Assembly: GCA_030737835.1 (NCBI GenBank)
Contig: CM060852.1
Span: 23,503,185 to 23,567,184, forward strand
Reading direction: 5' to 3'
Length of the DNA stretch: 64,000 nucleotides
Source: Acorus gramineus
Lineage: Eukaryota; Streptophyta; Magnoliopsida; Acorales; Acoraceae
Positions 12,986 through 58,984 of this stretch are shown piece by piece. Position numbers and translations under genes: made by a program. The notes beneath the pieces were generated by a model. That model made no database searches. It saw only the letters and a list, made by a program, of their open reading frames with translations, and was not told the DNA's origin. How positions within the stretch are numbered: position 1 is the first letter of the stretch; each line of letters starts with the position of its first letter.

Positions 12986-13365
12986 ATGTCACACCCCAAA
13001 CGGGGGTTAAAGATTAAAGCTGATTCAAACTAATAAAGTGGACCCAGCCCCGGCCACGAAATTAGCTTTAAAAAAAAAAAGATAAAGGTTATCACTGAAT
13101 TATTCTGATCATGAAGATTCAGAACTAGGAGGATGGTCCCAAATTTCTTTGTTTCTCTTTCTCTATGTGAAGCTTCCATGGTCAATTTACAATGCAGCAA
13201 CACAAAGTGGATATGTCCTTCTAAGAAAATACAACTTTTATTATAGGATGAACCAGAAAATACTGTACAGAGCAATACATGTCCATATTATCATCATCAG
13301 TACCCTCATTACAAAGTGGGGGAAGGGATCCACGAAAAAAAGAATGAAAGAATGAGATTTACAGG
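12986..13365 (-). promoter_or_regulatory. 3' flank of cc-A, with the shared 3' module
   Basis: Downstream of the cc-A stop lies a module with ATTATAGGATGAACCAGAAA at 13240 and TACCCTCATTACAAAGTGGG at 13302. Versions of it follow cc-B and cc-C, and also lie downstream of the PLATZ genes P1 (20808) and P2 (25046). It is probably 3' UTR and terminator. The segment at 12986-13035 begins TGTCACACCCCAAACGGGG, which looks like the end of another LTR fragment, at low confidence. Confidence 0.5.
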
Positions 13366-16307
13366 TCAATTAAGAGGTTCAAAATAGATTGCCCTAGGAG
13401 TAGCAAAATTCTGCCTTGTGCCCTGAAGTTCCGCCAGGCATGCTGACCACTCGTTGTGAATGGAACTCATACTGTTCATCAATGCAAATACCTTACCCTC
13501 CAGCATACCTACAACACGAGCCATCCGCAATCGCTCATTATTCAAATATTCCTCAGCCTTGACCTTGAGCTCCTCTATCTTTGCATCTTTCGATTGCACA
13601 ACCTGTTTCAGGCCTTCATTAGTGGCCCGTAACTCCTTTGTTATTTGCTGAATCTCATTATTCAAGGCACCCAGTTTACATGTCAGAGCAGAAACCTTCT
13701 CGCACCTCAGCTTGTCTCTCTCTTCCCCCGTCAATTTCATGTCCTGCTTCAGGTCATCCAATTCTTCCTCTGCCTTCTTCAGTTTTTCAGAGATGTCCTT
13801 ATCGACCGGTATTGTAATGGCTAATTTATGAAGTGATCCTTCAGTTTCTTCTATATTTGAAGCTTGATGACTCCGTTTCAGTCCCGAGATCTCTTCTTTC
13901 ATCCGTTGGTTATCAATGCTCAACTGCTCAATCTTCGACGTTGCCTCTACTTTTTCCAACTCCAGTTCTTCCTTCTGTTTTTCTAGGCCCCATAGCCTCT
14001 GATTCAGTTTTTCCTTTTCCTTATTATGTTCCACATTCTCATGCTTCCTTGAGTCCTCCTGATCCCTCTTTAGCTTCATCATGGTTCCCAACTTGTTGGT
14101 TAAATTTCGGATCTGTCTGGTTGCAGAATTAAAGTTTGGTTGCAAAGCTCGAATCTCCTCTTGCAGACCTGATACCACCTTGGCTTCAGCGATCAACTTT
14201 TCTGCTTCCTCTTCCAAACTCCATTTCAGTCTCGAGATATCTTCTTTCATCTGTTGGTTATCAATGCTCAACTGCTCAATCTTCGACTTTGCCTCTACTT
14301 TTTCACATTCCAGTTCTTTCTTTTGTTTTTCTAGGCCCCTCAGCCTCTGATTCAGTTTATCTTTTTCATTCATACATTCCACATTCTCGCAGTTCCTTGA
14401 GTCCTCCTGATCTTCCTTTTTCTTTGTCATGGTTCGCAACCCAATGGTTAGATTTTGGCCCTGTTGGGTTGCAGAATCAGACTCTTGTTGCAATGCCTGA
14501 TTCTTCTCTCGCAGATCTGATATCACCTTGACTTCAGCGATTAACTTTTCGTTTTCCACTTCCAAACTCCGTTCCAGTCTTGAGATCTTTTCTTTCATCT
14601 GTTGGTTATCAATGCTCAACTGCTCAATCTTCAAAGTTGTCTCTACTTGAACACACTCAAGTTCTTTCTTCTGTTTTTCTAGGACCCTCAGTGTCTGATT
14701 CAGTTTATCCTTTTCATTCTTACGTTCCATGTTTTCCCATTTCCTTGCATCTTCCTGATCTTCACTTAGCTTTGTCATGGTTTGCAACTCATTGGTTAGA
14801 TTTTGGATCCGATGGGTTGCAGAAACATTCTCTTGTTGCAAAGCCTGATTCGCCTTTCGGAAATCTGATACCACCTTGGCTTCGTCAATCAACTTTTCTT
14901 TTTCCTCTTCCAAAATCCATAATCTACTCTGCAACTCTGAATTTCGTTTGTCTAGTGATTCCTTAGAATCATGAATGAGCTTCATCGCCTTGGAATCTTG
15001 CTTGTTGATATTTTTTAATCTTCTTATCTCTTTCTTATGATAAAGTAATGTTGCTTCTCCTTCCTGGTTTTTTTTTGATAGAGCACGTGTGAGATCCAGA
15101 ACTTGATTGACTGAGATATGCACGTCATCTGCCGAGTCATCATCAACAACAATGTTCACCTCTCTTATAGGCTCGGTTGCAGTGTATAGTTTTCCCTCCA
15201 GGAGAACTTCAGCTATCTTCAGAAGATTCAAATAGACGAAGCTGTCACCGTTTGGAGAACCTTCAGACTCGGACGAGTCGGGCCTAAATTGTGTGAGAAA
15301 CAAACCATTCTGCTCATCTGGAGAATCATTTTTCTCATTGGATGGTGACTCATCTCCTAATCGACATACGTCTTTTACTTCACCCTCAAAGACGGTACGC
15401 CTAGATTGTCAGACACATGTAAATGCAATGATTTAGGCATGATTAAACTAAAATCAACATAAAGCATAAAACCATGCAGAGCAGATGCAATATGGATCAT
15501 TGGAGAGTTATCGACAGTTTGATTGGTCTTCGATGGAGGAGATATTGGGTTGCTATATCATATTGTATTGTGATCTAATCAGATAGATCCTCTCTATCTA
15601 ATCACAATCTACCTACATAGATGAGGTCAAGTTAACAAACATGCACGATGAGACTGAATGAACATATTCACCTTTTCAAACACCAGAAAAACACACCATG
15701 CCAGTGTCGGGTAATCTCTCTCTGTTCTGTTGTGGTCAACCAATTTGAATGACATACTAAACATCAGAGCATCAAAGTTTTCATTTCAATTGAGTTTTCT
15801 TTAAAAAAGAATACATGGTTGAATTAACACATCTTAACACAGAAACTTATAATGGGTTTGTTTTATTTTCATCTAAATTCAATATTGCAAGAAAGAAAGA
15901 AAGAAAGAAAGCAATAAATATAAACATCAGAGCATTAAAGTTTTCATTTCAATTGAGTTTTCTTTAAAAACGAATACACAGTTGAATTAACACATCATAA
16001 GACAGAAACCTATAATGGGTTTGTTTTCTTTTCACATAAATTTCAATATTGCAAGAAAGAAAGAAAGAAAGAAAGCAATAAACACAGCATCAGAAGGAGA
16101 AACAGAGAAACAAAAGATAAAAAAAAAAAGAGGAAGATCTTATCAGTTCAGTGAATTCATATCTTCTTCAGAGGATCTGAGGAGAACCCACTTGAGGATT
16201 TCAAGTGGGTCTCTTCAGAGAGAGAAAAAGATTGGGTTTTTCTTCTGTGAAATCGTTGCATACCTTGGAGGTTTCTTCCGTCGTGACTTAGGCTTCTTCT
16301 TCCCCAT
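13366..16307 (-). CDS. cc-A: intact two-exon coiled-coil protein with three 116-residue repeats
   Basis: Exon 1 is 16264-16307 (44 nt, MGKKKPKSRRKKPPR) and ends AAG before GTATGC. Exon 2 is 13366-15400, after acceptor AATCTAG. Together they encode 692 residues with no internal stop. After a basic, NLS-like N-terminus and an acidic Ser/Asp/Glu-rich stretch (about 20-70), the rest is charged coiled coil. Three tandem 116-residue repeats each open EKLIAEAKV and end near IEQLSIDNQQMKEEISRL; on DNA they fall at about 14554-14901, 14206-14553 and 13850-14205. The C-terminus is a shorter coil ending TPRAIYFEPLN. I do not recognise a named family; a scaffold or tether role would be a guess. Exon 1 was chosen because the same exon, donor and phase are kept in paralogue cc-B. 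The 863-nt intron holds a tandem duplication. Confidence 0.8.
15761..16086. repeat. 163-bp tandem duplication with AAAG microsatellite in the cc-A intron
   Basis: Two head-to-tail copies, each starting ACATCAGAGCAT and ending in an (AAAG)n run followed by CAATAAA, spaced 163 bp. cc-B and cc-C have single copies with shorter AAAG runs (39738 and 60742), so the doubling is specific to cc-A and later than the split of the three genes. Confidence 0.8.
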
Positions 16308-16620
16308 TTGTGAGTGCTCCTAAGCTTCAATGAGAGACCCAACTTCTCTTCTCCTCCCAAAAATGTTCTCTGGTTCTTGATTTCTTGAATGCCCAAAGAA
16401 ACACCAAATGTGTTTTTAAAAGCTGAATCACTATGGCATCACATATTTTTCTGCCGCGCAAAAGAACAAACAGTTGGTGAGCAGAAACCCAACCATCCGT
16501 ACCGTCTGATCGCTGAATCTTCTCCGACGATCTGTGGATCTCCATTACTTCTACAAAAGGTCCACCGATCAGGCCGTCTCCATATATATACATTGCATAG
16601 CCGTGCATAGTGTTTACCGA
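16308..16620 (-). promoter_or_regulatory. cc-A leader and TATA region
   Basis: A TATA box (ATATATATG on the minus strand, 16581-16592) lies about 275 bases upstream of the start codon. Next to it is GACGGCCTGATCGG, close to GACCGTCAGATCAATGG upstream of the PLATZ genes. The leader contains AGAAATCAAGAACCAGAG and TCTCATTGAAGCTTAGGAG, both similar to the PLATZ leaders. An open frame runs through the leader and is partly kept in cc-B and cc-C; I treat it as leader, possibly a uORF, not as a protein gene. Confidence 0.5.
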
Positions 16621-17070
16621 CTTTACGTTGCGCCCGCTTTGCTCCACCTTCAAAATGCCTCTAATTGAAAGTTTAGGAGCCCAATTTTGAGAAAGTTCAT
16701 GGGTAAGTGTTGAAAACAACTTAAGGTTCACCGTTAACTCTTTGATTAAGAACTTTATAAAATTTAGGATAATACTAGGTAGAACCCTAAATGCAGCTTT
16801 AAATGTAATCAAAATTATCTAGTGAAATATATTTTCACGAAAAGATTCTATTTTGAATTAAAATGAGTTCATTTTTAACAAATGCATGTTAAAAAAATTA
16901 ACAAAACATATATCTCATTTGAGGAATTATATACCTCAATGGATGCTAACGATATATGTGGAACTTCATTTAAGTTGTAAAAATGATTGTGTGTGACTGC
17001 GTCCTAATATTTAAAGCCCTGCTTGAATCTATTTTTAGATTTTAACGTTTTGCTTTTCAAAACCCTATCT
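16621..17070. other. Intergenic, nothing recognised
   Basis: AT-rich sequence upstream of cc-A, with no supported gene or repeat family. Confidence 0.3.
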
Positions 17071-17470
17071 TGTCAGATATATGAGTTTCCGTGAGTGGTG
17101 GGACAAATTCCCATTTCAAGGTTATCCAACTACTAATATTTTTTTAATTAATCGATTTTAGTTGGATATCCGGAACAATGGGAATTTATCCCATTATTCC
17201 GGATATGGCAATGTTAAAATAAATAAAAATAAGATGATCTACATGTCATTTGTCATTTACTCTTTTTATAAATTGTTATCTACGCATCTTATTTATTTTT
17301 TATCCACAGCATATCAATGGTTAACTCAAACAACAAAAACTTATCTTTCTCAATTAAAACAACTAATAATTTATTCCACTAGTATAGTTGTGTACATTGG
17401 ATAAGTTATTTGTCCTAAAATGACTTATATCGCTTCCCAAAAGAGACTAAATTGTATTACACTACAACCG
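17071..17470 (+). repeat. Duplicated BTB-gene upstream region with embedded MITE-like insert
   Basis: It matches 56225-56800, upstream of the intact BTB gene, with shared text such as CAAGGTTATYCAACTACTAA and CATAACATCTCAACTT. An AT-rich insert related to 12580-12985 sits inside. It shows that the relic that follows was copied with its promoter. Confidence 0.6.
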
Positions 17471-17958
17471 CATAACATCTCAACTTCATTGGTGGGAGAG
17501 GGATTGCAGAGGAAACATGATGGTGTTGATGATGTCCCAACATCCTCAGATCGAGTTCTCAAGATTCAAACGCTTGATGGACATTGATTCCAAATTGTTA
17601 GCCTCCCAAAGCCAATTTTTCATGAGCCTCTTCTCAAATGGCATGAAAGAGTCCAACAAGAATCAAATAGTAACTTTACACATACCAACAATAGCTCTGA
17701 AGAAGTCACAATTATAGAGCTCTTGAACTTCATGCATGGCAAAGACCTCTCCCAAGAGACTGTCACCTCATGTCCTCCTCAGCCTATTAACGTTTGCTGA
17801 AATGTACCATGTCACATCTTGTGTAGACTACTGCATCTATACTCTACTGCCCATGACTCTGGAATCTGCCATCCTCATTTTGGAGCTTCCCAATACCTTC
17901 TTATCATCAATCATAACCGAGAAATTTATTGTTGATCAGCTCTATGGAGACATGAACA
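17471..17958 (+). pseudogene. BTB-BACK gene relic, truncated
   Basis: A copy of the first ~490 coding bases of the intact BTB gene at 56805, with the same MxLFSNGMKES region, but without a 22-base segment after CAAACGCTTGATGG and with further small losses, so the frame is broken. It stops abruptly at GACATGAACAAG and runs into a PLATZ relic in opposite orientation. It cannot encode a BTB domain. The intact paralogue has the same upstream sequence, so this is a duplicate. Confidence 0.85.
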
Positions 17959-18670
17959 AGAGAAATCTTCCTCTTTGAGAAGCTTTGAAAGCCATTCTGG
18001 GCAAGGCTCTTCATCATCAGATTCTCTGGTGGTACATATAAAACAGTTTAAATTCTGATATAGATTAGTTATTCAACCATGATTGCATAAAGAACAAGAA
18101 TTTAAATAGTTTCTTGAGACTACAATCTGCCACTTCATGAATCGAAAAACTATCTGAATACAATCTAGTCTACTTCTTGAGACTACAGATATTTGCTTAT
18201 GATGATGCAAGAATGGACATATTATAAGATATTTATGAATGGGTTGTCTGAAAATCAACAAAACATGATTAAAAAAACAGAGTTTAATGTAGAATTTCAA
18301 TTTTCAAGTGTGGGTTTCCTTTAAAAAGATTACAAAGATGAAAGAATGGAAGAACACAAACCTGGAAGAGTTCCCATTCATTTTTTTGCCCTCCCGTGAA
18401 GCTTTAATGAGGTCCCAATGTGGATTTATGATTCTTGATTTCTTCGACTTGTTGTGAATGAATGAGAGAGTCTTTGAAGTTGAATGAAATGAGTATATAT
18501 GTCATAACGTTTAGGACTAATTTGTTGATGGACTCGGGATTCCAACAATCTGTACCATCTAATCAATGCACCTCAACCAACAAAACAAACCACCAGATTT
18601 CACCGTGTATATCTTCCCACCTGTCGGACTAGGCCCATTGATCTGACGGTCTCAATTTGTTTTAATATTG
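17959..18670 (-). pseudogene. PLATZ-like relic P0 (exon 2 start, intron 1, leader)
   Basis: It starts inside PLATZ exon 2 (CCTCTTTGAGAAGCTTTGAA), continues through intron-1 sequence and a decayed exon-1 site (CCTGGAAGAG then a deletion where the other copies have the Met exon), and ends with the leader and the upstream element CATTGATCTGACGGTC. There is no complete exon. Its boundary with the BTB relic is a clean non-homologous junction. Confidence 0.8.
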
Positions 18671-18935
18671 AAAATGGATAAGTCTGTTTATGAGAATCCA
18701 TAAATAGCAAGAATTCAAATATTTCTCTAGAGACTACAATATGTCTGTTTATGAATTGAAAAACTATCAGATTTTATATGGGATGTCTGAATACAATCTG
18801 TCTCTTCTTGAGATTAAAAATTTCTTGAGATAATGCAAAAATTCAAAACCATGAATCTATAAAGCACAAGAATTTGAATATTTTCATGAGACTACATATG
18901 ATTTTTAAATGGGTTGTAACAGAACATGTTAATAA

Positions 18936-20350
18936 TAATAATTCCTTACGTGGAACGGTGTATAAACAGTATTGAACTCACTCCAGATATTCTGGACAGC
19001 TGCTTTTATGCTACCCAAGAAAACTGTTAAAGCAATTGAAAAACTCTTCCACAATTTCCTTTGGGGGGGTCATGAAATGAAGTGGTCTATGCACGACGTT
19101 CAACAGAGAAAAGTCTGAATGCACAGAACGAAGGGGGCTTTGACAGTCGGCGGCTGCATCGCTAGGTGCTAATTTCTGGGCAGTAGCCACCAAAACATCT
19201 CTTTATGAGCTGAATGGGTGCGGAGCAAATATCTTAAGTCTAAATCTATCTGGAGAGCACTAATCGCAGCAAGCGCTTCTGCAAACTGGAAGGCCATTCT
19301 TTCTACCAGGGCCGAATTCAACCAAAGGTAAAATACCTTATTTCTCTGCCTTGGGGACGAACATATGGCTTGATCCATGGATTGGTGGCAAAGGCCTTAT
19401 TGATATACTCGGGGAGACATCTTAAATCTTCAGCCCCCCACGAAATGGCCTTCTTCCCATGCTCAAATCTGAACTGCAATTGAGGAAGCCGAAGTAGGAG
19501 GACTGGGGGCTGACATGCTTATCTGGCCGGATAGCTATTCAGGACGTTTAAACACTTTGGAAGCATGGGAGTTTATCCGTGAGAAGGCTCAGAAGGAAAA
19601 ATGGATGGATTAGATGTGGCATAGCTATCAAACTCCAAAACGCTCTTGTTGTACATGGCTTGCCTGTCTAAACAAAACCCCTACTTTTGATGGGGCACTA
19701 TCTCCGGACAGGGCAGGCTATGGCGCCATTCTCCTCAACTCTCAAGCTCAGTTCATCCGGGGCATAGCAGCTCAGACTACTTTATCGTCCATAAACATTC
19801 TTGAACTGAAATGTATTCGGACTGGGCTTAAACTTGCTGTGCAATTGGGTGCTTCAAAGCTTTGGATGGAGGGAGATTCGCGTACTGTTATCTCTTGGGT
19901 GAAGGGGAAAGGAAAACCTCCATGGACGGCAATTCGAATCCTTAGGGATATACAACAGAAGCTGGGCTGTTTGGCTGATTGGCATGCAACTCATATTTGG
20001 AGAGAAGCTAGCAAACCAGCAGATCTAATTGCAGCATGGAATACTTGTTATGGGGAACGGTGTTTTCTAGCAAATGAGTTATGGCCTGAACTCTCTGAGG
20101 CCATCCAAAACGAAGCCGCGGGCATGACGTATGAAAGATGTAGATGAAATTGTAGTAATCTTGCTTTCCTCTATGTGTACCTCCCTAAAGGAAGAACGGG
20201 GATTTCGGTGGGGATGCAATGCAGCTATGACTGTATTTCCCTCCCACTGTTTTTCTTGAGCCTCCTTGATGGGAGTACTTTTTGTAAAGTCTCTCATGTA
20301 CAATAATTTTATTTTATAGGAATACATATTTATGTACCCTCCAAAAAAAA
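18936..20350 (+). mobile_element. 5'-truncated LINE (L1-type), RT C-terminus and RNase H
   Basis: The plus strand reads FWTAAFMLPKKTVKAIEKLF and NFLWGG near 18980-19075, the usual end of plant LINE reverse transcriptase, with stops soon after. An open frame at 19614-20147 carries an RNase H-like domain: FDGA, LELKCI, MEGDSRTV and PADLIAAW supply the D-E-D-D set. A short poly-A run at 20342-20350 fits a LINE tail. The 5' truncation removes endonuclease and most of the RT, so it cannot move by itself. The RNase H frame is open but has no promoter of its own. Confidence 0.8.
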
Positions 20351-20387
20351 AGACAAGAGAGTTTAAGATCTAATTTCATTTTCAAGT

Positions 20388-20497
20388 GCGTTAGTGAATA
20401 GAGCTTTGGTTAAATCGACAAGCACCTCCCACCTCTCTAAAAAAAGGTTTAGAGATCAAATCCTAGGGAGCACCATTCTTCAAAAAAAAAAAAAAAA
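20388..20497 (+). mobile_element. Candidate tRNA-derived SINE
   Basis: About 110 bp with an A-box-like TGGTTAAATCGAC, a B-box-like GAGATCAAATCCT about 45 bases later, and a 16-base poly-A tail (20481-20496). It interrupts the PLATZ intron relic. The family and target duplication are not determined. Confidence 0.55.
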
Positions 20498-20760
20498 GTT
20501 CAACTGGGTTCTCTCTAAAGAACATATCTTCCTATAGAATGCATAATCGCATACCCATTGTTTTTGCCTCCCATGAATTTTTATTGAGACCCTAATATAG
20601 ATTGTAATCCATGATTTCTTGATGAGAAAGACAGTAAGAGAGACGGAGCAAGAGACGAAGTGCGTGTTCCTTTTTCAAGCTGAATAGAATGTTTTCACAA
20701 GCCTTTTTCCCCTTCATATGTAAATGTAATCCGTGTGTGACATATATGTACTTACCCAAA

Positions 20761-20997
20761 AAAAGTTGCTTGTAAAGGAAAATTGCAGAGGACATTAACT
20801 TTCATTATAGGATGAACAAGGAAGATCTGTACAGAACATTTATTGTCATCATCACCCTCATTACAAAGTGGAGCGCAAACGATTTAAAAAAAATGAAAGA
20901 ATAAATGCCAAGGAAATGAAGAGAATGAGTATCCAAGTACATTCTGCTAGTCTAATGTTTCATGGCCTGAGTAATTCATGTACAGCATGTCCACTAG
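20761..20997 (-). promoter_or_regulatory. P1 3' flank carrying the shared 3' module
   Basis: Downstream of P1's stop codon lies CATTATAGGATGAACAAGGA, followed by text identical in layout to the 3' flank of coiled-coil gene cc-C (59388 onward). It is presumed 3' UTR. Confidence 0.5.
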
Positions 20998-22527
20998 CTA
21001 GTCCTCATCAGGGGAAGGGGTCTTGTTCATATCCAATTTAAGGGTGCCAGAACCAGAAGCCTCGTTGGAGGTCACATTTGGCTTGGGTGCAGTGGTTCCA
21101 CTTCCAGAAACCTCATCAAGGGTCACATTCAAATTGGGTGCATCGGTGTGAGAACCAGAAGCCTCATTGGAGATCGCATTCTGGTTAGCTGCAGAGGTTT
21201 CGACTGTTTCCCCACGATTTCTTCCCCAGTACTTGATGAGGTCCTTGAGGGAGGATTTACAATGTTCCACCTGGAAATGAATCAAAACAATGTATATATA
21301 TTAAGAGTGAATCAAACAAATCAGTCACAGCTAAAATTCTCTGTTTCATTCTTTACCTTGCAACCCAAAGAACAGTATAGGTCACCTCGTAAGTTTCTGC
21401 GACAGTTGAGGTTGCGACACTGATTCATATAGTTGTGGGACACTTCAACATTACAAGCAACCTTAGTGCTTGTTATGTGCACTAGATTGTTATTTCCCTG
21501 CTTATATTCCTAAGAAAACACAAACACAAAAGAAGATGAAATCATGTTTAGGATCGAGAGAACCAAAAGCTTAATGTGATGACAAGTTGTTTTTGTGTCT
21601 TTAGTCACCTTAACACCAACACAATCGAAAAATTCATCAAAGTCTTTGACTATGACCGAGTTCCTTGTACAGTATTGATAGATCTGATTCAATTGCAAGA
21701 ATTCAATAAAATCAGTTACGACATAGTTCACCGTAAAAAGTGAGAGAAAAAAAAGAAGAGGAGAGGTTTGACAGTCAAGAAACTAAACCTTCATGCTTTT
21801 GTGAAGCACGTGATTGCAGGAAAGGCAGAAAGGGATACAACAATCCAGACAGAAGAATTCCATTGTTTTGTAAAAGTGCTGTTGACATTGCTTCTGGGAG
21901 AAATTCTCCTCTTTGAGAAGCTTTGAAAGCCATCCTGGGCAAGGCTCTTCATCATCAGACTCTCTGGTGGTACATATGAAACAGTTTAAATTCTGATATA
22001 GACTAGTTATTCAACCGTAATTGCATAAAGAGCAAGAATTCAAATATTTTCTTGAGACTACAATCTGCTTCTTCATGAATCAAAAAACTAAGGGAAGACA
22101 ATCTAGTTATTCAACCATTTGCTTATGATGAAGCAAGAACGGACATAATATAAGATATTTATAAATGGGTTGTCTGAATACCAACAGAACATGAAAGCCA
22201 TTCTGGGCAAGGCTCTTCTTTTATTACCAGACTTTGGATAACATTAACCATGAATACACACAAAGACCAAGAATTCAAATATTTTCTTGAGACTAAAATT
22301 TCCCTCATGATGTCCAAAAACTACAAATATTTGCTTATGATGATGCAAGAATGGACATATTATAAGATATTTATGAATGGGTTGTCTGAAAATCAACAAA
22401 ACATGATTAAAAAAACAGAGTTCAATGTAGAATTTCAATTTTCAAGTGTGGGTTTCATCTAAAAAGATTACAAAGAATGGAAGAACACATACCTGGAAGA
22501 ATCGGGTAGTTTACGTTTCCTGTTCAT
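20998..22527 (-). CDS. P1: PLATZ-like zinc-finger protein, five exons, open
   Basis: Exons 22493-22527, 21789-21963, 21609-21683, 21357-21509 and 20998-21270 join in frame at GT-AG sites to give 236 residues. PLATZ proteins are plant-specific, zinc-dependent binders of AT-rich DNA and modulators of transcription. Order: basic MNRKRKLPDSS, CPGWLSKLL (the PPWL-LL position), a C-x2-H and two C-x2-C pairs (CQQH, CLDC, CLSC), a short NHVLH, then IYQYC...FFDC and a second Cys cluster CRNLNC...YCSLGCK. The tail repeats ASGSxTDAPxxNVT and ends LKLDMNKTPSPDED, a weakened form of the DLNxxP motif in P2. The His spacing is one or two residues shorter than in P2. Intron 1 contains a partly doubled segment. 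It could be functional. Confidence 0.8.
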
Positions 22528-22770
22528 TTTTTTTTTTGCCTTCCCGTGAAGATTTCTTCTATTTGTTGTTCAGAGAGAGAGAGAGAGAGAGAGAGGGGTT
22601 TAATTTCTTTGAAGTTGAATCAAATGAGTATTATATATGCCATAACGTTTAGGACTCGGGATGCCAACCGTCCAATCAGTGCACCTCAACCAACCAAAAA
22701 ATCACCACATTTCACTTTGTATATCTTCCCGCCTGTTGGTACAGGGCCCATTGATCTAACGGTCACAATG
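22528..22770 (-). promoter_or_regulatory. P1 leader and promoter
   Basis: A (GA)n run at 22571-22594 (CT on the sense strand) lies in the leader, TATA-like ATATATAATAC at 22629-22638, and the shared element GACCGTTAGATCAATGG near 22745-22761. P2 and P3 keep the same order. Confidence 0.55.
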
Positions 22771-22849
22771 TGTTTTAATTTTTGAAAAGGATAAGTTCTG
22801 TTTGTATGGAGCTACCATTTGCAGCCCACACTTTTTATTAAAAAAAAAA

Positions 22850-23190
22850 ATACATTTGTTCATTGAAATACATACATTATACAAAGTAAAATATCATATC
22901 AAATGTCATTCATATAGAAAAGTGCATATACAACCACACATGCCAGCACATGCGGTCACATTTGAATCCATGGTTATGGTCAAATGGAAATAGTAATCAT
23001 ATGATCCAATTCGAACTCACATAAATTCACAATAGTCTCACATTTGCTGGAAAAAAAAAAGAAGAAAATGACTCCTTTATAGAGAACTGGGGCTTTATAT
23101 ATAGTGTGTTGAGTCTTTTTTTTTTTTTTTTTAATGGGTGTGGTGTGTTTTTTTTTTTTTGTTGGGTATGGGTGTGGTGATGGTCACCTT
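22850..23190. repeat. Intergenic segment duplicated at 33230-33440
   Basis: Shared text such as CATATCAAATGTCATTCAT, CCACACATGCCAGCAC and GGAAATAGTAATCATATGAT appears in the same order at both places, directly before PLATZ relics. It shows a block duplication reaching from here to about 24450. T-rich runs at 23118-23134 and 23148-23160 are otherwise unremarkable. Confidence 0.7.
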
Positions 23191-24070
23191 AACGCCATCT
23201 AAATGCTTTCAATAAAATCAATGGGACATAATTTACTAGAAAAGTGAGAAAAATATATAAGGCTCCGTTTGGATACGAGTTTATGTAGATTCTGCTTTTA
23301 AAAGCTAAAATTTTCAAACTCAGATCCAAACACATTTTCAGCGTTTAGTTTTTCAAACCATAATATTTCCTTTTTAGACCAAAAAAGCTTGCCGTTGAAA
23401 ATTTAATAAAACAATGTTTTTCAAAAGATAAGTTTGAAACACAAGATTAATTGAATCTTAACATTTCAACCTAACATCCAAACGCAGCCTTAAGAGTTTG
23501 ACAATCAAGAGACATAACCTATATAATTATCTGAGGCTTGTAAATTTTATTTTTTTTGGGCAATAGTCACTATTGGGATTGTATCTCCATATGGTATATC
23601 ACATCGGATGGCCATGATGAAACCATATTAAGTTGAACACCTTATTGGTATACATTAATTAAAATTTGATCTTAATTAATATTTAAAGTGAGTCTCCTAA
23701 AATCAGGAAACAATATTTGTTTGTTAATTATGAGATTACTTGAGAATGAAGTTGTTTATATCTATAAAAATACTCTACGGTTCTATGGCAAAACTTGACA
23801 TGAGTCAATGTAGAGAACCCCAAGGATAGATTGAGAGGGTTATAAGAGTCTCTTAATGTTTTTTGTGTCTCAACTATTACGATGGATTCTATGTTTTCGT
23901 CACGTGAATGCAGGTCTAAGCCAAACCACGTATATCTTGTGTTCTTTGTAACGATGTTTCACTCTTGTATTTGATCTCAGGTTTTGTTGATGGCTTCCAT
24001 GTATTCTTTTCCCATCAGTAACAAAAAGAGATACAACAATGAAGAAATTCAGTTTGTTGAGTGGTGCTTC
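23190..24070 (-). pseudogene. PLATZ-like relic P6, with a MITE inside
   Basis: On the minus strand the remnants are part of exon 2 (GAGATACAACAATG against the CCTTTCTG-TTGTATC region, near 24030-24060), intron 2 (GAGTTTGACAATCAAG) and exon 3 flank (TTCAATAAAATCAATGGGAC). A 229-bp MITE and a further ~430-bp unassigned stretch (about 23575-24000) interrupt it. No coding capacity remains. Confidence 0.6.
23261..23489. mobile_element. MITE with TIR GGCTCCGTTTGGAT
   Basis: The left end is GGCTCCGTTTGGAT; the right end, reverse-complemented, is GGCTGCGTTTGGAT. Flanks are TAA on the left and TTA on the right, compatible with PIF/Harbinger targeting but not an exact duplication. It is 229 bp and noncoding. 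It lies inside intron 2 of PLATZ relic P6. Confidence 0.75.
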
Positions 24071-24229
24071 TTTTCTTTTTTTTTTTTTTTTTTGTACCGA
24101 GACGCTTCGCCATCAAAGACTATGGGAAACAAACCAGTTTAAATGCAAATACATTCATGGGGTAAGCTTTAATTTGTTGTTGATGTTGTTGTACCATTGC
24201 TTGGAGGACATAAATTCATAATCCTTAAA

Positions 24230-24450
24230 AATATAAAATGTCTCTGCTACGAATATTATATAGGATGAACCAGAAAAAAACTGTACAGAGCAATACATGT
24301 TTACAAGTATGTCCATATTATCATCTCCAGTACCCTCATTACAAAGTGGGGGCAGGGATCAACACAAAAAACAAAGAAGGAAAGAATGAGATTAACAGGT
24401 CAAAAGAGAGGCCCAAAACCGTTCGACATAGGACTATAGGAGTAGCAAAG
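24230..24450 (-). pseudogene. Coiled-coil gene relic (3' end only)
   Basis: It holds the shared 3' module (TATAGGATGAACCAG, TACCCTCATTACAAAGTGGG) followed by text matching the last coding bases of the cc genes (AGGACTATAGGAGTAGCAAAG against the CTACTCC...end in cc-B). The body of the gene is absent. With relic P6 it forms a smaller copy of the PLATZ relic plus cc-B end at 33560-34060. Confidence 0.65.
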
Positions 24451-25000
24451 TAATTGATTTTACAAGTTTTTTCGGAAGATAACACACTGTCATTTAATGT
24501 ACCAAGCTGGTATGACTTTATTGAGAGGTTGCAGATGCCATTCCCTCATGCCTAACTCCATAAAACTATAATGAATTTCTAAATTTTATAAGTGATGATG
24601 TTTGATAACTGTTAAAACAGTGCTTGCATGTTATGGTTCAAATCATAGCACATACGAATTTTAGGTGGTTTATCCACGGAGAATTAAAGAAGAGAATTCA
24701 ATTCACTACAACCAGTAATCGGGATTAAAAGTTTAGTCACTTAATCCAAAGAAGGAATAAAAACTAATTAAATATCCGAAGATGGAAAAATTAGACCCGA
24801 AAAAAGAAAAATGAGATGGGGGTGCTGCTCATGAACCCCCACAGATCAGTTCTTGTTTCAATGCAAGGCATTTAACAACAGTGATTCTCCATATGAAACA
24901 AAACGAGTGGTTGTTTATCAACTATGGAATGTTTTCACAAGCCTTTTCCCCTTTCATATGTATCCTTGTGTGACATAAAAAAAAAATGCATGTAAAGGAA
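24451..25000. other. Intergenic, nothing recognised
   Basis: Unique AT-rich sequence, except a short PLATZ-leader-like piece at 24920-24990 (GGAATGTTTTCACAAGCC). Confidence 0.35.
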
Positions 25001-25229
25001 AATATTGGAGGACAAACTTTCAGTGGTGCCATTTTTTTTTTCTTTATAGGATGAACAAGGAAGATCTGTGTAGAACAATACATGTTTACAAGTGCATCCA
25101 TATTGTCATCATCACCCTCATTACAAAATGGAGCTCAAACAATTTTTTTAAAAAATGAAAGAATAAATGGTAAGGAAAAGTTTCTGTATGTATTGATTGA
25201 AAGGGAAATGAAGAGAGCATGTCCACTAG
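25001..25229 (-). promoter_or_regulatory. P2 3' flank carrying the shared 3' module
   Basis: It contains TTATAGGATGAACAAGGAAG at 25045 and ATTGTCATCATCACCCTCA at 25102, matching the flanks of P1 and cc-C. It is presumed 3' UTR. Confidence 0.5.
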
Positions 25230-26461
25230 CTAATCCTCATCAGGGGAGGGGGTCTTGTTCAAATCCAAGTTAAGGGTGCAAGAACCAGAAGTCCCGTTGG
25301 AGGTCACATTTGTTTCGGGTGCAGTGGTTCCATTTCCAGAAACCTCATCAAGGGTTGCATTTGAAACGGGTGCATCGGTGCGAGAACCAGAAGCCTCATT
25401 GGCGACCGCATTCTGATTAGCTGCAGAGGTTTCGACTGTTTCCACGCGATCGCTTCCCCAGTACTTGATGAGGTCCTTGAGGAATGGCTTACAATGTTCC
25501 AGCTGGAAATGAATCAAAACAATGTACATATATATATTAAGAGTGAATCAAACAAATCAGTCACGGCTAAAATTCTCTGTTTACATTCTTTACCTTGCAA
25601 TCCAAAGAACAGTATATGCCGCTACCTCGTAACTTTATGCCACAGTTGCGACACTGATTTGCATATGACACTTCAATCTTAATGCTTCTTTTCCCAACAC
25701 TTGGTATGTACACTAGATTTATATTTCCCTTCTTATATTTCTAAGAAAACACAAACACCAAAGAATATGAAATCATGTTTAGGATCGAGAGAACCAGAAG
25801 CTTAATGCAATGATGAGTTGTTTTTGTGTCTTTGGTCACCTTAACACCATCACAATCGAAAAATTCATCTAAGTCTTCGGGTCTGACCGAGTTAATCATA
25901 CAGAATTGATAGATCTGATCCAAATGCAAGGATTCAATAAAATAAGTTCTACATAGTTCACCGTAAAAGCAAGAAAAGAAGAAGAAGAAGAAGAAGAAGA
26001 AGAAGAAGAGTGGTTTGACACCTGAATGCTTTTGTGAAGCTTGTGGGTTGGATTGCAATGGAAACAAATTGGGACACAACAATCCAGACAGAAGCAGTTC
26101 ATTTTGGAGGGTGAGTGCTGTTGACATTCCTTGGAGAAATCCTCCTCTTTGAGAAGCTTTGAAAGCCACTCTGGGCAAGCCTCTTCTTCTTCATCACCAG
26201 ACTCGCTATTGGATAACATCAACCATGAATGCATAAAGACCAAGAATTCAAATATTGTTCTTGAGATGATGCAAGAACGGACATATTATAAGATATATAT
26301 AAATGGGTTGACTGAATACCAACAGAACATGATTAAGAAAAACAGAGTTTGATGTAGAATTTCAATTTTCGAGTGTGGGTTTCATTCAAAAAGATTAGAA
26401 AGATGAAAGAATGGAAGAACACATACCTGGAAGAGTCGGGTAGTTTACGTTTCCTGTTCAT
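25230..26461 (-). CDS. P2: PLATZ-like zinc-finger protein with C-terminal DLNxxP motif
   Basis: Exons 26427-26461, 26022-26205, 25840-25914, 25594-25740 and 25230-25502 splice in frame to 237 residues. It has the most complete zinc finger of the cluster, C-x2-H-x8-C-x2-C-x4-C-x2-C-x3-H-x2-H (CQQH, CLDC, CFHC, HKLH), after CPEWLSKLL. Then come IYQFCMINSVRPEDLDEFFD, which aligns with the family's IRRYVYHDVVRLxDLxKLID, and a second cluster CRNCG...YCSLDCK. The Ser/Thr/Ala-rich tail has 15-17-residue repeats and ends LNLDLNKTPSPDED, which fits both the DLNxxP and LxLxL forms of the EAR motif that recruits TOPLESS-type co-repressors. A nuclear repressor is therefore plausible by inference. Exon 1 encodes only MNRKRKLPDSS. 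A (GAA)n run (about 25975-26010) sits in intron 2. Confidence 0.85.
25975..26010. repeat. (GAA)n microsatellite in P2 intron 2
   Basis: About twelve GAA/AAG units, pyrimidine-rich on the sense strand and placed before the exon-3 acceptor. P1 and P3 have shorter purine-rich runs at the same place (about 21748 and 30796). Confidence 0.8.
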
Positions 26462-26720
26462 TTTTTTTGGCCTCCCGTGAAGCTTTAATGAGATCCCAAT
26501 GTGGATTTCTGATTCTTGATTTCTTCGATCTGTTGTTCTGAGTAAGTGAATGAGAGAGAGAGAGAGAGAGGTTTTTAAATTCTTTGAAGTTGAATCAAAT
26601 GAGTATTATATATGCCATAACGTTAGGATTCCACTACCAGCAAAAAAAAAACCACCACATTTCACCGTTTATATTTTCCCGCCTTTTAGAACCAGGCACA
26701 TTGATCTGACGGTCTCAAGT
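26462..26720 (-). promoter_or_regulatory. P2 leader and promoter
   Basis: The leader carries a (GA)n run (26552-26570), AGAAATCAAGAATCAGA and ATCTCATTAAAGCTTCACGG. TATA-like ATATATAATAC is at about 26604-26613, and the GACCGTCAGATCAATG element near 26700. The leader words recur in the coiled-coil genes. Confidence 0.55.
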
Positions 26721-26739
26721 ATTTTCTAAAATATTAAGT

Positions 26740-26940
26740 AAAAACTTTATGCAAATATTTTCTAAAATATTTCATATTTTTTATTTAGTAACAATAATTA
26801 ATAAATTTATTATATTATAATTATGTCATAATTTAATTCCGGTTGACTAAAGAGTTGAACCAATAACCTTTGACCTGTTCATTTTTTCAGTTCATCAAAC
26901 TATTCCATTTTTTAGAATATTGTAATTTTTATCGATCATA
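26740..26940. repeat. Fragment of the GTTTTTAAAACATTGCA repeat family
   Basis: It matches part of the fuller copies at about 31650-32110 and 40441-41030, with AATTTATTATATTATAATTA and the GAACCARTGACYCTTGACC region. It is truncated on the left and noncoding. Confidence 0.5.
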
Positions 26941-26974
26941 ACTTAGACCACACATGTTTTTTATTTTTTAAAAT

Positions 26975-27478
26975 GAAAAAATCCATGTAACCCCTTGTAA
27001 ACTGTCCAAAATCCATAAAACCCCTTACTTTAATTGAAGTTCATAAAACCCATTGAAAACACATATGTAAATCTAAATAGCCCCCCTGAGTTAAATTTTT
27101 ATTAACTGATTAGGATTTTTCTGCAAATATTTTGTCTAGTTAACCCACAATGAAAACATAGTATACCATAAAACTCTTACAATGTATTAAAAATATAGAA
27201 AATCCTCTATGAGTAATGATTTTACCACTTCGGATAGGGTTTTATAATCTATCTAGAGGGGTATAAAATCTTCATTTATATAGGGTTTTTGCATTTAGGT
27301 TTTTCGCATACTGTGTTTTCAATCAAGGTTAACCAAACAGATTAATATTCATTATCTACCAACGAAATTTTAACTCAGGGGGTTATTTGGATTTACATAG
27401 GTGTTTTCAAGGGAAAAGTCAGAGGGTTAAAAATGGATTTCAAGCAGTTTATAGGGGTTATTTGGATTTTTTTTCCTT
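26975..27478. mobile_element. MITE family M, copy 1
   Basis: The ends are inverted: AAAAAATCCATGTAACCCCT on the left, and the right end reverse-complemented gives AAAAATCCAAATAACCCCTA. It is noncoding, about 0.5 kb. Copy 2 is at 32151-32672 and a larger relative at 54612-55771. Copies 1 and 2 also share their left neighbour sequence, so one may have been copied as part of a larger block. Confidence 0.65.
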
Positions 27479-27544
27479 TTTTAAAAAATAGTATAAACAC
27501 TATCTAATGAGATATATGCTTTAATAAAAAAATGTATATATCGA

Positions 27545-27990
27545 GTTGAATCTATCCCATGCATTGTACTTTTGCGCAGGTTGAGGGAGAGGCCCGATAA
27601 TGCGTTGAAGCAGAAGTGGATGAAGCGGAGTCCCTGGACATATCGTGGCTTGGTTTCATTGAGGAGGATGGTGTCATCCGCGTATTGTAGGATAGATACT
27701 TTTTCCCCCGCTTGTGTGCTCGAAAGACCTGCAATTCATCCTCCTTCCGTCGCTTTCTCACACAGCCTGCTTAAAACATTCATGATCAGAACAAAAAGAA
27801 TCGGGGAGAGGGGATCCCCCTGACGCAGCCCTCTATTGAGGGGGAAGAAACCGGCCACCTTGCCGTTGATCAGCAGAGAGGCAGGCACCGTATCGATACA
27901 TTGTTGCACCATATGCAACCATCGGTTAGAAGCCGTGCATTGCCATGATTTGTTATTGGGTGGGTTTTGCAATGGGGTTGGGTGAACAAG
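27545..27990 (-). mobile_element. LINE reverse-transcriptase fragment
   Basis: On the minus strand the frame reads LRQGDPLSPILFVLIMN (27780-27835) and, beyond an in-frame TGA, LQYADDTILL, which are RT domains 4 and 5 with the YADD active site. Both ends are truncated and there is no poly-A tail. It is not the same piece of LINE as 18936-20350, so the two cannot be compared for identity. Confidence 0.85.
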
Positions 27991-28344
27991 TGATGGGGAT
28001 TTAACCCCGGCATCCCCTTTTTAATTTTGAAAAATGATATATTCAGTTTACATGAAGTCATATTCGTAGCCCACACTATTTTTTTTATATATAAAAAAAA
28101 TTACACTCGTCCATATATTGAAATGCATACGTTATAAAAAAATATGTCATATCAACAAACCTTGTTCACAAACTTTCTAATATTAACATTTGGGGGCGGA
28201 TATTCCCACCACCCCATTTATATTAAACACCACCCTTTATTTACAATATTACCATCCGTGCATAACTCTCAAAAATGCATTAAGGGCACCACCCTCCCCT
28301 TCTCACCACCCTAAGTAATTGGCTAGGTCAATCCCACCACCCTA

Positions 28345-28935
28345 AATAATTGGCATAAGTTAGACACATGGGATGTTTACGTAATTATATTTCCTAGACA
28401 ATGGCCTTGTCGATGAAAACAAAAAAAAAGACATGTAGGTTCTGGAATGAGTTAGATACATAGGGTGTCTATATAATTATATTTTTTAGACAATTCCTAT
28501 GTCGATGAACAAAAAAAAAAAATCATGTAGGTTCTGGAATGAGTTAGACACATAGGATGTCTACATAATTATATTTCCTAGACAATAGCCATGTCGATGA
28601 AAACATAAAAAAAAAAAAAAAACCGTAGGTTCTGGAATGAGTTAGAGACATAGGGTGTCTACATAATTATATTTATTAGACAATTCCTATGTCGATAGAC
28701 ATAGAAAAAAAATCCTGTAGGTTCTGAAATGCGTTAGACACATGAGATGTCTACATAATTATATTTCCTAGACAATGACCCCGTCGATGGAAACAGAAAA
28801 AAAACCTGTAGGTTTTCGAATGAGTTAGACACATGGAGTGTCTACATAATTATATTTTCTAGACAATATCCATGTCGATGGAAACAGAAAAAACCCTGTA
28901 GGTTCTGGAATGAGTTATAGTTGTGTGTTTAACTA
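28345..28935. repeat. ~90-bp minisatellite, six copies
   Basis: The word GGAATGAGTTAGACAC recurs at about 28444, 28533, 28632, 28725 (changed), 28814 and 28903. Each unit also has TAATTATATTTCCTAGACAA, a GTCGATG word and an A-run of varying length. Units are 89-97 bp, and the period varies mainly through the A-run. It is not a CRISPR array, because the whole unit is repeated. Confidence 0.85.
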
Positions 28936-29299
28936 CACCAATGTCAATGGTTGTAGTAATTGGAGACTGTTACTGTCAAACACATAAATGTATGAAAGTT
29001 TTAATGTTTTTTTCTAAAGGTTAGATACATCGTGTGTTGAGTATATGTGTATTGTTAGACAGTTTGCTTGTCGATTGCTTCATAAATCAAGTTTTTTCAT
29101 AAAACATAAGAAGAAGAAAAAATCACAAATTCAACAAGAGTTACTTATCCACACTTAGGTCTCTTTAATTAATCCATTGATAAACATTGATAAACACTTA
29201 AAGTCATACTTGCAAAGAAAACCATCTAACGTTTGATCAAAACCAGCATTCAAAGCACCAGCGGATGTCCAATACAAAGCGGAGGTGGACGTCGACGAA

Positions 29300-29480
29300 G
29301 ATCAAGATTTGCTCTTGCACCGACGAATGTTGACGACAAAGCCGAGGAGGCTGTCAACGGAAGTTGGGATCCATTCTTGCACCGATGGATGTTGAGGACA
29401 AAGTGGAAGTGGACGTCGATGGAGGTCGGGATCCAGTACTCTTGCACCGATGGATGTCGACGATGAAGCGGAGGCCGGAC
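29300..29480. repeat. ~63-bp minisatellite, three copies
   Basis: CTTGCACCGAYGGATGTYGA recurs at about 29313, 29375 and 29441, each followed by GACGACAAAGC-like text. It lies near the right end of the transposon-like element. Confidence 0.7.
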
Positions 29481-29697
29481 AGAGAGAGGGAGGGTGGAAT
29501 GAGAAGAGAGAAGGGAAATAAAAAAGAGAGAAGAAAGATTCATGTTTTAGAAAATGTGAAGGTGGTGAACTTTGAGTCTTTGGTAAAAAAAATTTATAAG
29601 GTGGTGAACTTGAAAATAAACCAAATGATAGGTAGTGAGGTAAAAAAGGTGGTGCTCAAAATAAAATGGGTGGTGGGACTATCCGTGCCCAACATTT

Positions 29698-30058
29698 TCC
29701 ATCCTATCCATCCCATTAATGAGTTTTGATTCATGAACTGTAGAAACAAAAAGGAATATCTTTCCAATAGTTGAGATCCATTATAGAGTGACCGCTGCTA
29801 TAAACAACCCCGTTTTGATCTCCGATTTGGGTATATTCATTCATTTGGTCTGTATGAAACATCTTAGAACTGTAGAATTCAGAGACAAAGGTTTTGTATA
29901 TATTGATGGGAGGGAAATGGATAGAATTTGGTATTCATGTAAACCATGCAGAGATGAATTCGTCCTCTAACATTACTTATTCCCCGCCTGAGTAAATTTG
30001 AGTCTCACCGGGAGAGGCCAAAAAATGGCGTGCCGACTAGGCAGAATCAAAATCCTCA
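29698..30058. other. Intergenic between transposon and P3
   Basis: Unique sequence. Near 30005-30045 it loses all similarity to the 3' ends of P1 and P2, which marks where P3's original 3' end was replaced. Confidence 0.35.
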
Positions 30059-31334
30059 TCAGGGGTCGCTTTCGAATTGGGGTGCATCGGTGCAAGAACC
30101 AGTAGCCTCGTTGGAGGTCACATTTGGCTCGGGTGCAGTGGTTCCATTGCCAGAAACCTCATCAAGGGTCGTGTTCGAATTGGGTGCATCAGTGCGAGAA
30201 CCAGAAGCGTCAGTGGAGGTCACATTCAGGTTGGATGCAGAGGTTTGGAAACCAGAAGCCACTGTTTCCACGCGATTGGTTCCCCAGTACTTGATGAGGT
30301 CCTTGAGAGAGGACTTACAATGTTCCACCTGGAAGTGAATCGAACCAGTGTATATATATTAAGAGTGAATCAAACAAATCAGTCACAGATAAAATTCTCT
30401 GTTTCATTTTTACCTTGCAGCCCAAAGAACAGTATTTTTTGCCGCGTCGTAAGTTTTTGCAACAGTTGAGGTTGCGACACTGATTTGTATAGTCTCCTAA
30501 CACTTTACTCTTAGTGCTTGTTATGTACACTAGTTTTTTATTTCCCTCCTTATATTCCTAAGAAAACATAAACATGAAAGAAGATGAAATCATGTTAGGA
30601 TCGAGAGAACCGAAAGCTTAATGTAATGACGAGTTGTTTTTGTGTCTTTGGTCACCTGAACACCATCACAATCAAAAAATTCATCCAAGTCTTCGAGTCT
30701 GACCGATTTCTTCATACAGTATTGATAGATCTGATTCAAATGCAAGAATTCAATAAAATCAGTTCGACATAGTTCACAGTAAAAAGCGAGAAATAAAAAA
30801 AGAAGAAGAGAAGTTTGACACTCAAGAAACTAAACCTTCATGCTTTTGTGATTGCTGGCATTGCAGAAAGGGATACAACAATCCAGACAGAAGAAGTTCA
30901 TTTTAGAGAAATTCTCCTCCTTGAGAAGCTTTGAAAGCCATTCTGGGCAAGGCTCTTCATCATCAGACTCTCTGGTACATGTAAAACAGTTTAAATTCTG
31001 ATGTAGATTAGTTGTTCAACCATGAATGCATAAAGAACAAGAATTCAAATATTTTCTTGACACTACAATCTGCCACTTCATGAATCGAAAAACTATCGGA
31101 ATACAATCTAGTCTACTTCTTGAGACTACAGATATTTGCTTATGATGATGCAAGAATGGACATATTATAAGATATTTATAAATGGGTTGTCTGAATACCA
31201 ACAGAACATGATTAAGAAAAACAGAGTTTGATGTAGAATTTTCGAGTGTGGGTTTCATTTAAAAAGATTAGAAAGATGAAAGAATGGAAGAACACATACC
31301 TGGAAGAGTCGGGTAGTTTACGTTTCCTGTTCAT
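30059..31334 (-). CDS. P3: PLATZ-like protein with depleted zinc ligands and altered C-terminus
   Basis: Exons 31300-31334, 30836-30971, 30656-30730, 30414-30557 and 30059-30328 join in frame to 219 residues, with all four introns at the same places as in P1 and P2. Exon 2 lacks 39-48 nt, a multiple of three, compared with its sisters. The CQQH pair is gone, the second C-x2-C has become CNAS, and one His of the last pair is missing. The second Cys cluster, CRNLNC...YCSLGCK, is kept. The tail keeps the SGSxTDAP repeats but ends TDAPQFESDP, without the DLN-type motif. The first zinc finger should not fold. It is either a decaying gene or a modified derivative kept for other contacts; the open frame across five exons argues against advanced decay. 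Confidence 0.7.
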
Positions 31335-31600
31335 TTTTTTTGGCCTCCCGTGAAGCTTTAATGAGATCCCGATGTGGATTTCTGATTCTTGATTTCTTCG
31401 ATTTCTTGTTCTGAGTGAGTGAATGAGAGAGAGAGAGAGGGGTTTTATTTCTTTGAAGTTGAATCAAAAGACTATTATATATGCCAACCATCTGTACCGT
31501 CTAATCAGTGCATCTCTTCCAGCAAAAAAAAACCCACCACATTTCACCGTTTATATTTTCCCAGCCTTTTAGAACCAGGCCCATTGATCTGACGGTCTCA
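31335..31600 (-). promoter_or_regulatory. P3 leader and promoter
   Basis: Same layout as P1 and P2: leader with GATCTCATTAAAGCTTCACGG, a short GA run (31424-31438), TATA-like ATATATAATAG near 31472-31482, and GACCGTCAGATCAATGG near 31575-31591. Confidence 0.5.
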
Positions 31601-31639
31601 ATTGTTAATTTTGAAATGGAAAATGTGTTGACTTAGTCA

Positions 31640-32110: not shown

Positions 32111-32150
32111 TATTAATCAAAACTCCGAATATGTTTTCATTTTTTAAAAT

Positions 32151-40094: not shown

Positions 40095-40137
<43 letters not shown>

Positions 40138-58740: not shown

Positions 58741-58984
58741 TATGTGAACATGTGTATATCATCACCACCATTACAATTGTCAAAGTTCACAACATTCACA
58801 GCACTGTTGGTGAACAAGATAGCTTAAATGAATCAAAATAATGAACTAATGGGACTAACAAATCAATGAGACTAACAACATCCTATTGTTGCTCAGTGTT
58901 TTTATTTTTTGTACACAACTGTATATTCCCCACTTCTAAGATCTCAAGCGTTTCCTGAGATGCTTGTTGCACATGCTGGACCTC

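Follow-up and report, generated by a model that had tools for sequence, protein, structure and literature searches.

Introduction

How two protein families with unrelated coding sequences can come to share the DNA at the outer ends of their genes is the question raised by a 64,000-nucleotide stretch of the Acorus gramineus genome (GenBank assembly GCA_030737835.1, contig CM060852.1, positions 23,503,185 to 23,567,184 of the forward strand), referred to here as the window, in which PLATZ-like genes and genes of a putative coiled-coil family lie in one cluster. The latter are called coil genes, a label taken from a sequence-only reading of positions 13230-31600, which held that the two families have a common 5' leader, first-exon design and 3' flank around unrelated middle exons, and which explained this by the joining of one gene's outer parts to a different body. 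The evidence considered here consists of comparisons within the window together with published papers. We find that the earlier observation is real but uneven among the copies, and that its interpretation is partly supported: homology of the 5' control DNA in the two families is supported by the comparisons, and the 3' sharing is most likely a separate scar, left by a deleted coil gene.

Results

Every copy of both families located within the window lies on the minus strand, and the pattern extends past the range described earlier, up to 61.2 kb. The coil copies are designated cA, cB, cC and D, and the PLATZ genes and heads P0 to P5; their positions are as follows.

13366..16307, minus strand: coil gene cA (spliced open model, GT/AG sites)
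16264..16585, minus strand: head of cA, comprising promoter block, leader and exon 1 (nhmmer and masked block tests; block start 16581)
17960..18688, minus strand: P0, a PLATZ head with intron 1 and part of exon 2 (self-alignment of 17959-18688 with 30905-31629)
20528..20750, minus strand: P5, a PLATZ head with no body and exon 1 mostly gone (matches the P4 head at 58577-58756)
20998..22527, minus strand: PLATZ-like gene P1, five exons, 236 amino acids (splice model; PF04640, 26.8 bits)
24200..24443, minus strand: D, the remnant of a coil gene, of which the last few codons and the 3' untranslated region (UTR) are left (profile and alignment)
25230..26461, minus strand: PLATZ-like gene P2, five exons, 237 amino acids (splice model; PF04640, 29.6 bits)
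30059..31334, minus strand: PLATZ-like gene P3, five exons, 219 amino acids, without the shared 3' flank (splice model; PF04640, 36.8 bits)
31300..31605, minus strand: head of P3 (profile, block tests and alignment; block start 31599)
33900..40015, minus strand: coil gene cB, broken frame (head 39972-40320)
58516..58756, minus strand: P4, a PLATZ head and exon 1 with no body (nhmmer E 4.9e-29 with the PLATZ head profile)
59318..61164, minus strand: coil gene cC (3' flank 59318-59519, body remnant, promoter 60974-61164)

The heads of the two families share control DNA

Occurrences of the leader and tail motifs, with mismatches allowed, were counted in the window and in 20 shuffled windows. The motif AGAAATCAAGAAYCAGA (up to 3 mismatches) is found six times, always on the minus strand and always at a head (16369 in cA, 18427 in P0, 26508 in P2, 31381 in P3, 40070 in cB and 58619 in P4), as compared to 1.35 expected per shuffled window, and six of the nine occurrences of TCTCATTRAAGCTT (up to 2 mismatches; 1.7 expected) fall at the heads of cA, P0, P2, P3, cB and P4. 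The leader motifs described as common to the families are thus present in cA, cB and four of the six PLATZ heads; P1 has lost them, and P5 is itself a weak copy.

Pairwise similarity was assessed by block tests in which two coil heads were compared with six PLATZ heads, giving 12 pairs for each of four blocks, with simple repeats masked and with 500 shuffles and 1000 real background windows for each test (counts are uncorrected over the 48 tests). Unmasked head profile scores are raised by CT runs in the leader; we infer that these runs account for the high unmasked leader scores of cB, and it is because of this suspected inflation that the later head tests were masked. In the leader block, the scores of cB against P0, P2, P3 and P4 were reached by 0/500 shuffles and 0/1000 background windows, and that against P5 by 1/500 and 0/1000. 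The corresponding values for cA against P0, P2, P3, P4 and P5 were 1-9/500 and 16-28/1000, and P1, whose leader is mostly deleted, was not significant with either coil gene. In the promoter block (-420..-145), cA and cB paired with P0 and P3 were matched by 1-8/500 shuffles and 0-6/1000 background windows; the other eight of the 12 pairs, involving P1, P2, P4 and P5, were not significant, although parts of the block are visible in the alignments of P1 and P2. The intron block (+120..+420) yielded no convincing pair, the best being cB-P4 (9/500 and 24/1000). A second masked test, covering -140 to +50 with 400 shuffles and 400 background windows, gave 0-2/400 shuffles for nine of the ten pairs without P1 and 7/400 for the tenth (cB-P5), with background counts of 0-6/400; the two P1 pairs were reached by 41-43/400 shuffles and 116-231/400 background windows. 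The expectation that aligned heads would outscore shuffled sequence was therefore borne out strongly for the leader of cB and more weakly for that of cA, and failed in the masked tests for P1 and for exon 1.

The shared head spans from about -265/-300 to just upstream of the ATG. Its promoter block, which contains GAGAC..GATC..TGG.CCT and GATYAGAYGGTA..GAT.GTT, is common to the coil genes, P0 and P3 and starts at -274 in cA, -301 in cB and -265 in P3. With nhmmer E-values computed for the 64-kb window, the unmasked coil head profile matched P3 (E 2.1e-9), P2 (9.5e-9), P0 (9.7e-6), P5 (9.9e-5), P1 (7.7e-4) and P4 (0.006), and the unmasked PLATZ head profile matched cB (1e-12) and cA (0.0012). 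In a leader tree, which is unrooted, gives no direction and omits P1 owing to its deleted leader, coil and PLATZ heads are separated with 100% support. These comparisons show that coil and PLATZ heads are homologous and support the sharing of 5' control DNA by two unrelated families. The earlier statement that both stand under the same control sequences holds unevenly: P1 is without the leader motifs, and significance for the upstream block is confined to P0 and P3.

A dispersed promoter repeat, accompanied by common leader motifs and either inserted separately or converged upon in both families, would agree with the modest masked scores and with an upstream block that is not significant in P1, P2, P4 and P5. 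We regard such an origin as quite improbable, since the promoter and leader blocks follow the same order in the two families, at comparable distances from the ATG, and the profiles find no further head in the 64 kb, just weak matches elsewhere. Sixty shuffled windows gave no match at E<=1, but these were searched with default filters as opposed to the more sensitive setting used for the real window, and are not a matched control.

Likeness past the start codon is one of size and phase

Because homology is not demonstrable past the ATG, the likeness of the first exons is one of size and phase. The length of exon 1 is 35 nt in P1, P2 and P3, as against 44 nt for cA and cB, and the exon ends in phase 2 before GTATG; that of P0 differs (20 nt before GTTTG). 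In the masked block test, 0/12 pairs were significant over exon 1 together with the beginning of intron 1, whereas an unmasked comparison of exon 1 plus 300 nt gave low counts in 4/12 pairs (cA-P3 7/300, cB-P1 9/300, cB-P2 3/300 and cB-P3 2/300). The masked test is trusted more, and homology of this segment was set aside, although a weak sequence likeness past the ATG may exist. What remains of the tiny Lys/Arg-rich exon reported earlier is its length, phase and GTATG; sequence likeness is not demonstrable, and the Lys/Arg content varies (cA 9/15, cB 7/15, P2 4/11, P4 2/11 and P0 0/6).

The bodies are unrelated

P1, P2 and P3 all exceed the curated PF04640 cut-off (25 bits), and their five exons, GT/AG sites and open frames lie within the PLATZ range, given as three to five exons (PMC12251706) and three or four introns (PMC8974209). 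The P3 splice model drew the last exon 22 nt beyond the stop, which was taken from the list of open reading frames (ORFs). The first PLATZ zinc motif, C-x2-H-x11-C-x2-C-x(4-5)-C-x2-C-x(3-7)-H-x2-H as stated in the same papers (PMC12251706, PMC8974209), is present with strict spacing in 0/3 genes, and looser spacing fits P1 and P2, not P3; because the strict motif is absent, the genes are called PLATZ-like. The second motif, C-x2-C-x(10-11)-C-x3-C, is strict in P2 and requires looser spacing in P1 and P3.

The coil gene cA consists of two exons (exon 1, 16264-16307, 44 nt; exon 2, 13366-15400) encoding 692 amino acids. At E<=0.01, its 680-amino acid ORF had no match in Pfam; for the first 192 residues of the coil protein, a search of solved structures was empty at E<=1 and three Pfam matches were obtained, all under their own cut-offs (best DUF4515, E 0.0062). 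Tandem repeats of 348 nt (116 amino acids) lie inside the coil coding sequence at 13870-14960 and are also present in cB. The claim that the middle exons are unrelated was confirmed: coil and PLATZ proteins show nothing above chance (best blastp E 0.36), and tblastn with a low-complexity filter detected neither PLATZ traces in coil introns nor coil coding traces in PLATZ genes above chance.

The shared 3' flank is a coil-type 3' UTR

The shared 3' flank, termed T, is the coil genes' own 3' UTR, which starts no more than about 15 nt from the coil stop and, in the coil copies, adjoins coil coding DNA without a break. Its motif ATAGGATGAACAAGGA (up to 2 mismatches; 0.1 expected per shuffled window) occurs five times, each time in a 3' flank (13243, 20807, 24260, 25046 and 59387), and is exact in P1, P2 and cC with two mismatches in cA and D. 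A coil T profile was built from cA, cC and D, and the segments concerned are the following.

13200..13369, minus strand: T of cA (member of the T profile)
20797..20914, minus strand: T behind P1, coil-type 3' UTR (coil T profile E 2.4e-18)
25007..25174, minus strand: T behind P2, coil-type 3' UTR (coil T profile E 6.6e-28)

Profile matches at E<0.01 are confined to cA, cB, cC, D, P1 and P2, with three more at E 0.87-8.1. The common flank claimed for the PLATZ genes is therefore found behind P1 and P2 and not behind P3, where the profile has no match up to E 10. The far flank of P3 is equalled by 324-388/500 shuffles in comparisons with P1, cC, cA and D, and its lower count against P2 (37/500) is mostly owed to the near flank; a T behind P3 was rejected on the strength of both tests.

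T begins about 85-95 nt after the PLATZ stop in P1 and 55-65 nt after it in P2, and by sequence the two appear to start at the same junction. Before T, P1 and P2 keep 3' sequence of their own that is partly common with P3 (0/500 shuffles for both P1-P3 and P2-P3), and the near 3' flanks of the PLATZ genes showed no significant similarity to coil ends in nine comparisons (best 15/300). In the T tree, (cA,(cC,(P1,P2)96)100,(D,cB)56), P1 and P2 group with cC with 100% bootstrap support. The possibility, raised with the sequence-only reading, that the flank is a transposon inserted at each gene did not hold up: T does not behave as a gene-independent element of the Pack-type or miniature inverted-repeat transposable element (MITE) kind, and a transposon origin does not fit because T runs into coil coding sequence in the coil copies.

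The two ends differ in relative age

Distances between families were expressed relative to the cA-cC distance of the same segment, in one set with the promoter taken from P0/P3 and T from P1/P2, and in a second with P1/P2 supplying both ends; the ratios derive from gappy alignments of about 108-196 sites. The between-family ratio for the promoter was 3.2 with P0/P3 (95% bootstrap 2.2-5.1) and, to cC, 3.4 with P1/P2 (2.1-6.9). For the T of P1/P2, the ratio to cC was 0.59 (0.38-0.93) in the first set and 0.61 (0.39-0.93) in the second. The ratio to cA was 0.97 (0.70-1.38), so that this T and cC are equally distant from cA, in agreement with a branching of this T from the cC line. If rates are even within each segment, promoter ratios of 3.2-3.4 as compared to 0.6 for T indicate that the promoter sharing is older than the coil split and the T sharing younger. 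Given this difference in relative age, it is unlikely that both outer parts were transferred together. The proposal of a one-step joining of one gene's outer parts to a different body is thus not sustained: a single transfer of both ends was rejected as unlikely on the ages and on the absence of T from P3, and would need later conversion and loss.

Conversion and loss are what a single ancient body replacement would invoke, with both outer parts kept, the T of P1/P2 later converted towards cC and T lost from P3. The pattern closely resembles the flounder Gig2 case (PMC9122973), in that homology ends near the ATG and is found again from the coil stop onward; copies have likely recombined with one another, and P2 has similar raw distances to cA and cB in its leader and in its T. 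We nevertheless consider this history unlikely, as it requires conversion plus an independent loss, leaves the T of P1/P2 younger than the coil split and the promoter older, and has to accommodate the PLATZ genes' own 3' sequence, partly common with P3, that precedes T. A long ancestral gene containing head, PLATZ exons, coil exon and T, from which each family lost the other's exons, would account for exon 2 starting in phase 2 in both families and for T coming after the PLATZ exons in P1 and P2. It is very improbable given the lack of traces of either body in the other family, the non-significant comparisons of near 3' flanks with coil ends and the different ages of the two ends.

Layout of the array

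The interval from P1 to D (20900-24500) is collinear with that from P3 to cB (29900-34100) except for one small block out of order, and a coil body is present at cB only. Similarly, the P5 head and the T of P1 are collinear with the P4 head and the T of cC, and beyond the T of P2 lie spacer remnants like those after other T copies (24951-25047 resembles 59049-59150). The cluster thus looks like an alternating coil-PLATZ array, a layout that fits the loss of coil bodies behind P1 and P2. It contains orphan or cut-down parts of the kind that characterize hybrid arrays, namely the heads P0, P4 and P5, the tail D, whose region 24075-24443 resembles 33721-34036 at cB (longer there), and cC, which is without leader and exon 1 and has its promoter fused directly to intron 1 at 60973-60975. 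P0 is fused to a BTB gene fragment (17219-17960) that aligns with 56522-57299. The coil gene cB is split by a 3221-bp insertion (35114-38334) with TG...CA ends and a 5-bp target duplication, GTTCC, for which cA has the corresponding empty site at 14569; by its sequence the insertion looks like a solo long terminal repeat or similar. Weak matching relics at 23208-24068 and 33537-33680, between coil tails and the next PLATZ gene, are possibly remains of further PLATZ exons (tblastn E 0.72).

P1 looks like a mosaic. When nearest relatives were compared for each gene part, its intron 4 (1/86 sites different from P2) and exon 5 were closest to P2, exons 2 and 4 were closest to P3 and exon 3 was tied, from which recombination between array copies seems likely. 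Within intron 1 of P1, 27 nt at 22192-22218 are identical to P3 exon 2 (30932-30958) as part of an internal duplication. Coding exons diverge more than introns 2-4 in P1-P2 (15.5% vs 8.4%, Fisher p 0.0034), P1-P3 (12.8% vs 7.0%, p 0.0091) and P2-P3 (15.5% vs 10.6%, p 0.049), in a comparison that excluded intron 1 and in which the last exon of P3 carried the 22 nt past the stop. The ratio of nonsynonymous to synonymous substitution rates (dN/dS) was 0.75-0.91 by NG86 and about 1.5 by YN00 in 2/3 pairs, and the PLATZ-like exons may be under relaxed or diversifying selection.

Other elements in the window

A resistance-like NB-ARC/LRR gene with an Rx_N domain, split across several frames, occupies 5444-8566 (domains read from ORFs 5947-6993 and 7610-8566). 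A 1499-bp element at 28192-29690 has terminal inverted repeats of about 60 bp and AACATTT on both sides; within it, at 28.3-28.9 kb, units of 91-98 nt are repeated in tandem. At 43408-44508, direct and inverted repeats are nested and include two 98% copies 526-527 nt apart. They are followed by a copia-type retrotransposon (44603-53665) whose ORFs are enclosed by a pair of 97% identical stretches, each about 305 bp long, and for which integrase and RVT_2 domains were found in the one ORF scanned (49020-51218). A BTB-domain gene (PF00651) lies on the plus strand at 56703-58094, and its truncated copy at 17219-17960 adjoins the P0 fragment.

Discussion

We favor as the probable history of this locus a decaying tandem array, derived from a repeated two-gene unit in which a PLATZ-like gene lies downstream of a coil gene on the same strand. 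Long ago, the promoter and leader of one family would have become the head of the other, in either direction, with the joining point near the ATG or in intron 1, and the coil-PLATZ pair would then have multiplied as one unit. Coil and PLATZ bodies would subsequently have been removed at several places by deletion and unequal recombination, leaving heads without a full body (P0, P4 and P5), a coil tail whose body is gone (D) and coil tails directly behind P1 and P2. The 3' sharing is then most likely the scar of a deleted coil gene, separate from the head transfer. Repeated cutting and joining in a tandem array fits the cluster, rather than one neat mid-gene swap.

Several observations weigh against this account. 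The masked whole-window profiles weaken (coil profile to P0, E 7e-4, and to P3, 0.045; PLATZ profile to cA, 0.018), and because of this drop the case for homologous heads draws on collinear position in addition to score. Unmasked profiles also match sites that are not heads (PLATZ profile at 28138-28018, E 0.0014, and 8529-8575, E 0.019; coil profile at 16128-16219 on the plus strand, E 2.4e-4), and cA by itself is only moderately above the real background (16-28/1000 in the leader block). Promoter distances are inflated where the alignment is poor, P2 above all, and the raw P2 leader distances to cA and cB (0.51 and 0.38) resemble the T distances (0.43 and 0.46). The younger age of T follows from its proximity to cC, a copy that lacks a leader for comparison. 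The coil gene that would once have lain between P1 and its T is one that we infer, and P1 and P2 share T, yet exons 2 and 4 of P1 are nearer P3, so that extra recombination is needed.

As to the origin of the coil family, it is possible, though we put this forward tentatively, that it arose in this lineage of plants from a duplicated PLATZ-like gene whose promoter and leader were kept and whose body was replaced near the start codon, after which old and new genes would have multiplied as a two-gene unit with sister promoters. If true, this origin would be the plant counterpart of the path from Gig2 to antifreeze protein. The cluster offers a usable case for studying how a gene can take over its neighbor's regulatory DNA. 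It also carries a warning: where genes of an array have a 3' flank in common, the flank may be the mere scar of a deleted neighbor.

Hybrid genes in tandem arrays are already known, and this cluster belongs among them; the same arrangement was not described in the titles or opening abstract lines of the listed literature matches on PLATZ gene structure or tandem duplication and on chimeric genes. The flounder type I antifreeze gene derived from Gig2 has common outer DNA around an unrelated coding sequence (PMC9122973). As in the Acorus cluster, upstream DNA and leader are alike to the start codon, the coding sequences are unrelated, likeness returns near the stop and the genes form a tandem array. 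Unlike that case, the ends here differ in relative age, one PLATZ gene has no T, and each of the bodies exists in several copies within the window. Hybrid genes are found in the chicken BG tandem cluster, with exchanged 5' and 3' ends (PMC4046983); that cluster resembles the present one in its same-strand array, in ends switched by recombination or deletion and in separate trees for each gene part; BG hybrids, however, arise within one family, whereas two unrelated protein families are involved here. The chimeric maize p1/p2 genes, for which end-joining and homologous recombination are described (PMC2686159), likewise frame a plant tandem array, but p1 and p2 are both Myb-related and share one origin. 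The fusion genes of rice (PMC9199173) are also new plant genes, formed by gene fusion; they are apparently gene fusions, not cases of shared non-coding heads or tails. What is special about this locus is that it combines two unrelated families and that a single window holds several intermediates: heads that lack a body, a tail that lacks one and a mosaic gene are all visible in 64 kb. The chimeras compared above join paralogues or fuse genes, whereas here unrelated coding families share non-coding control DNA.

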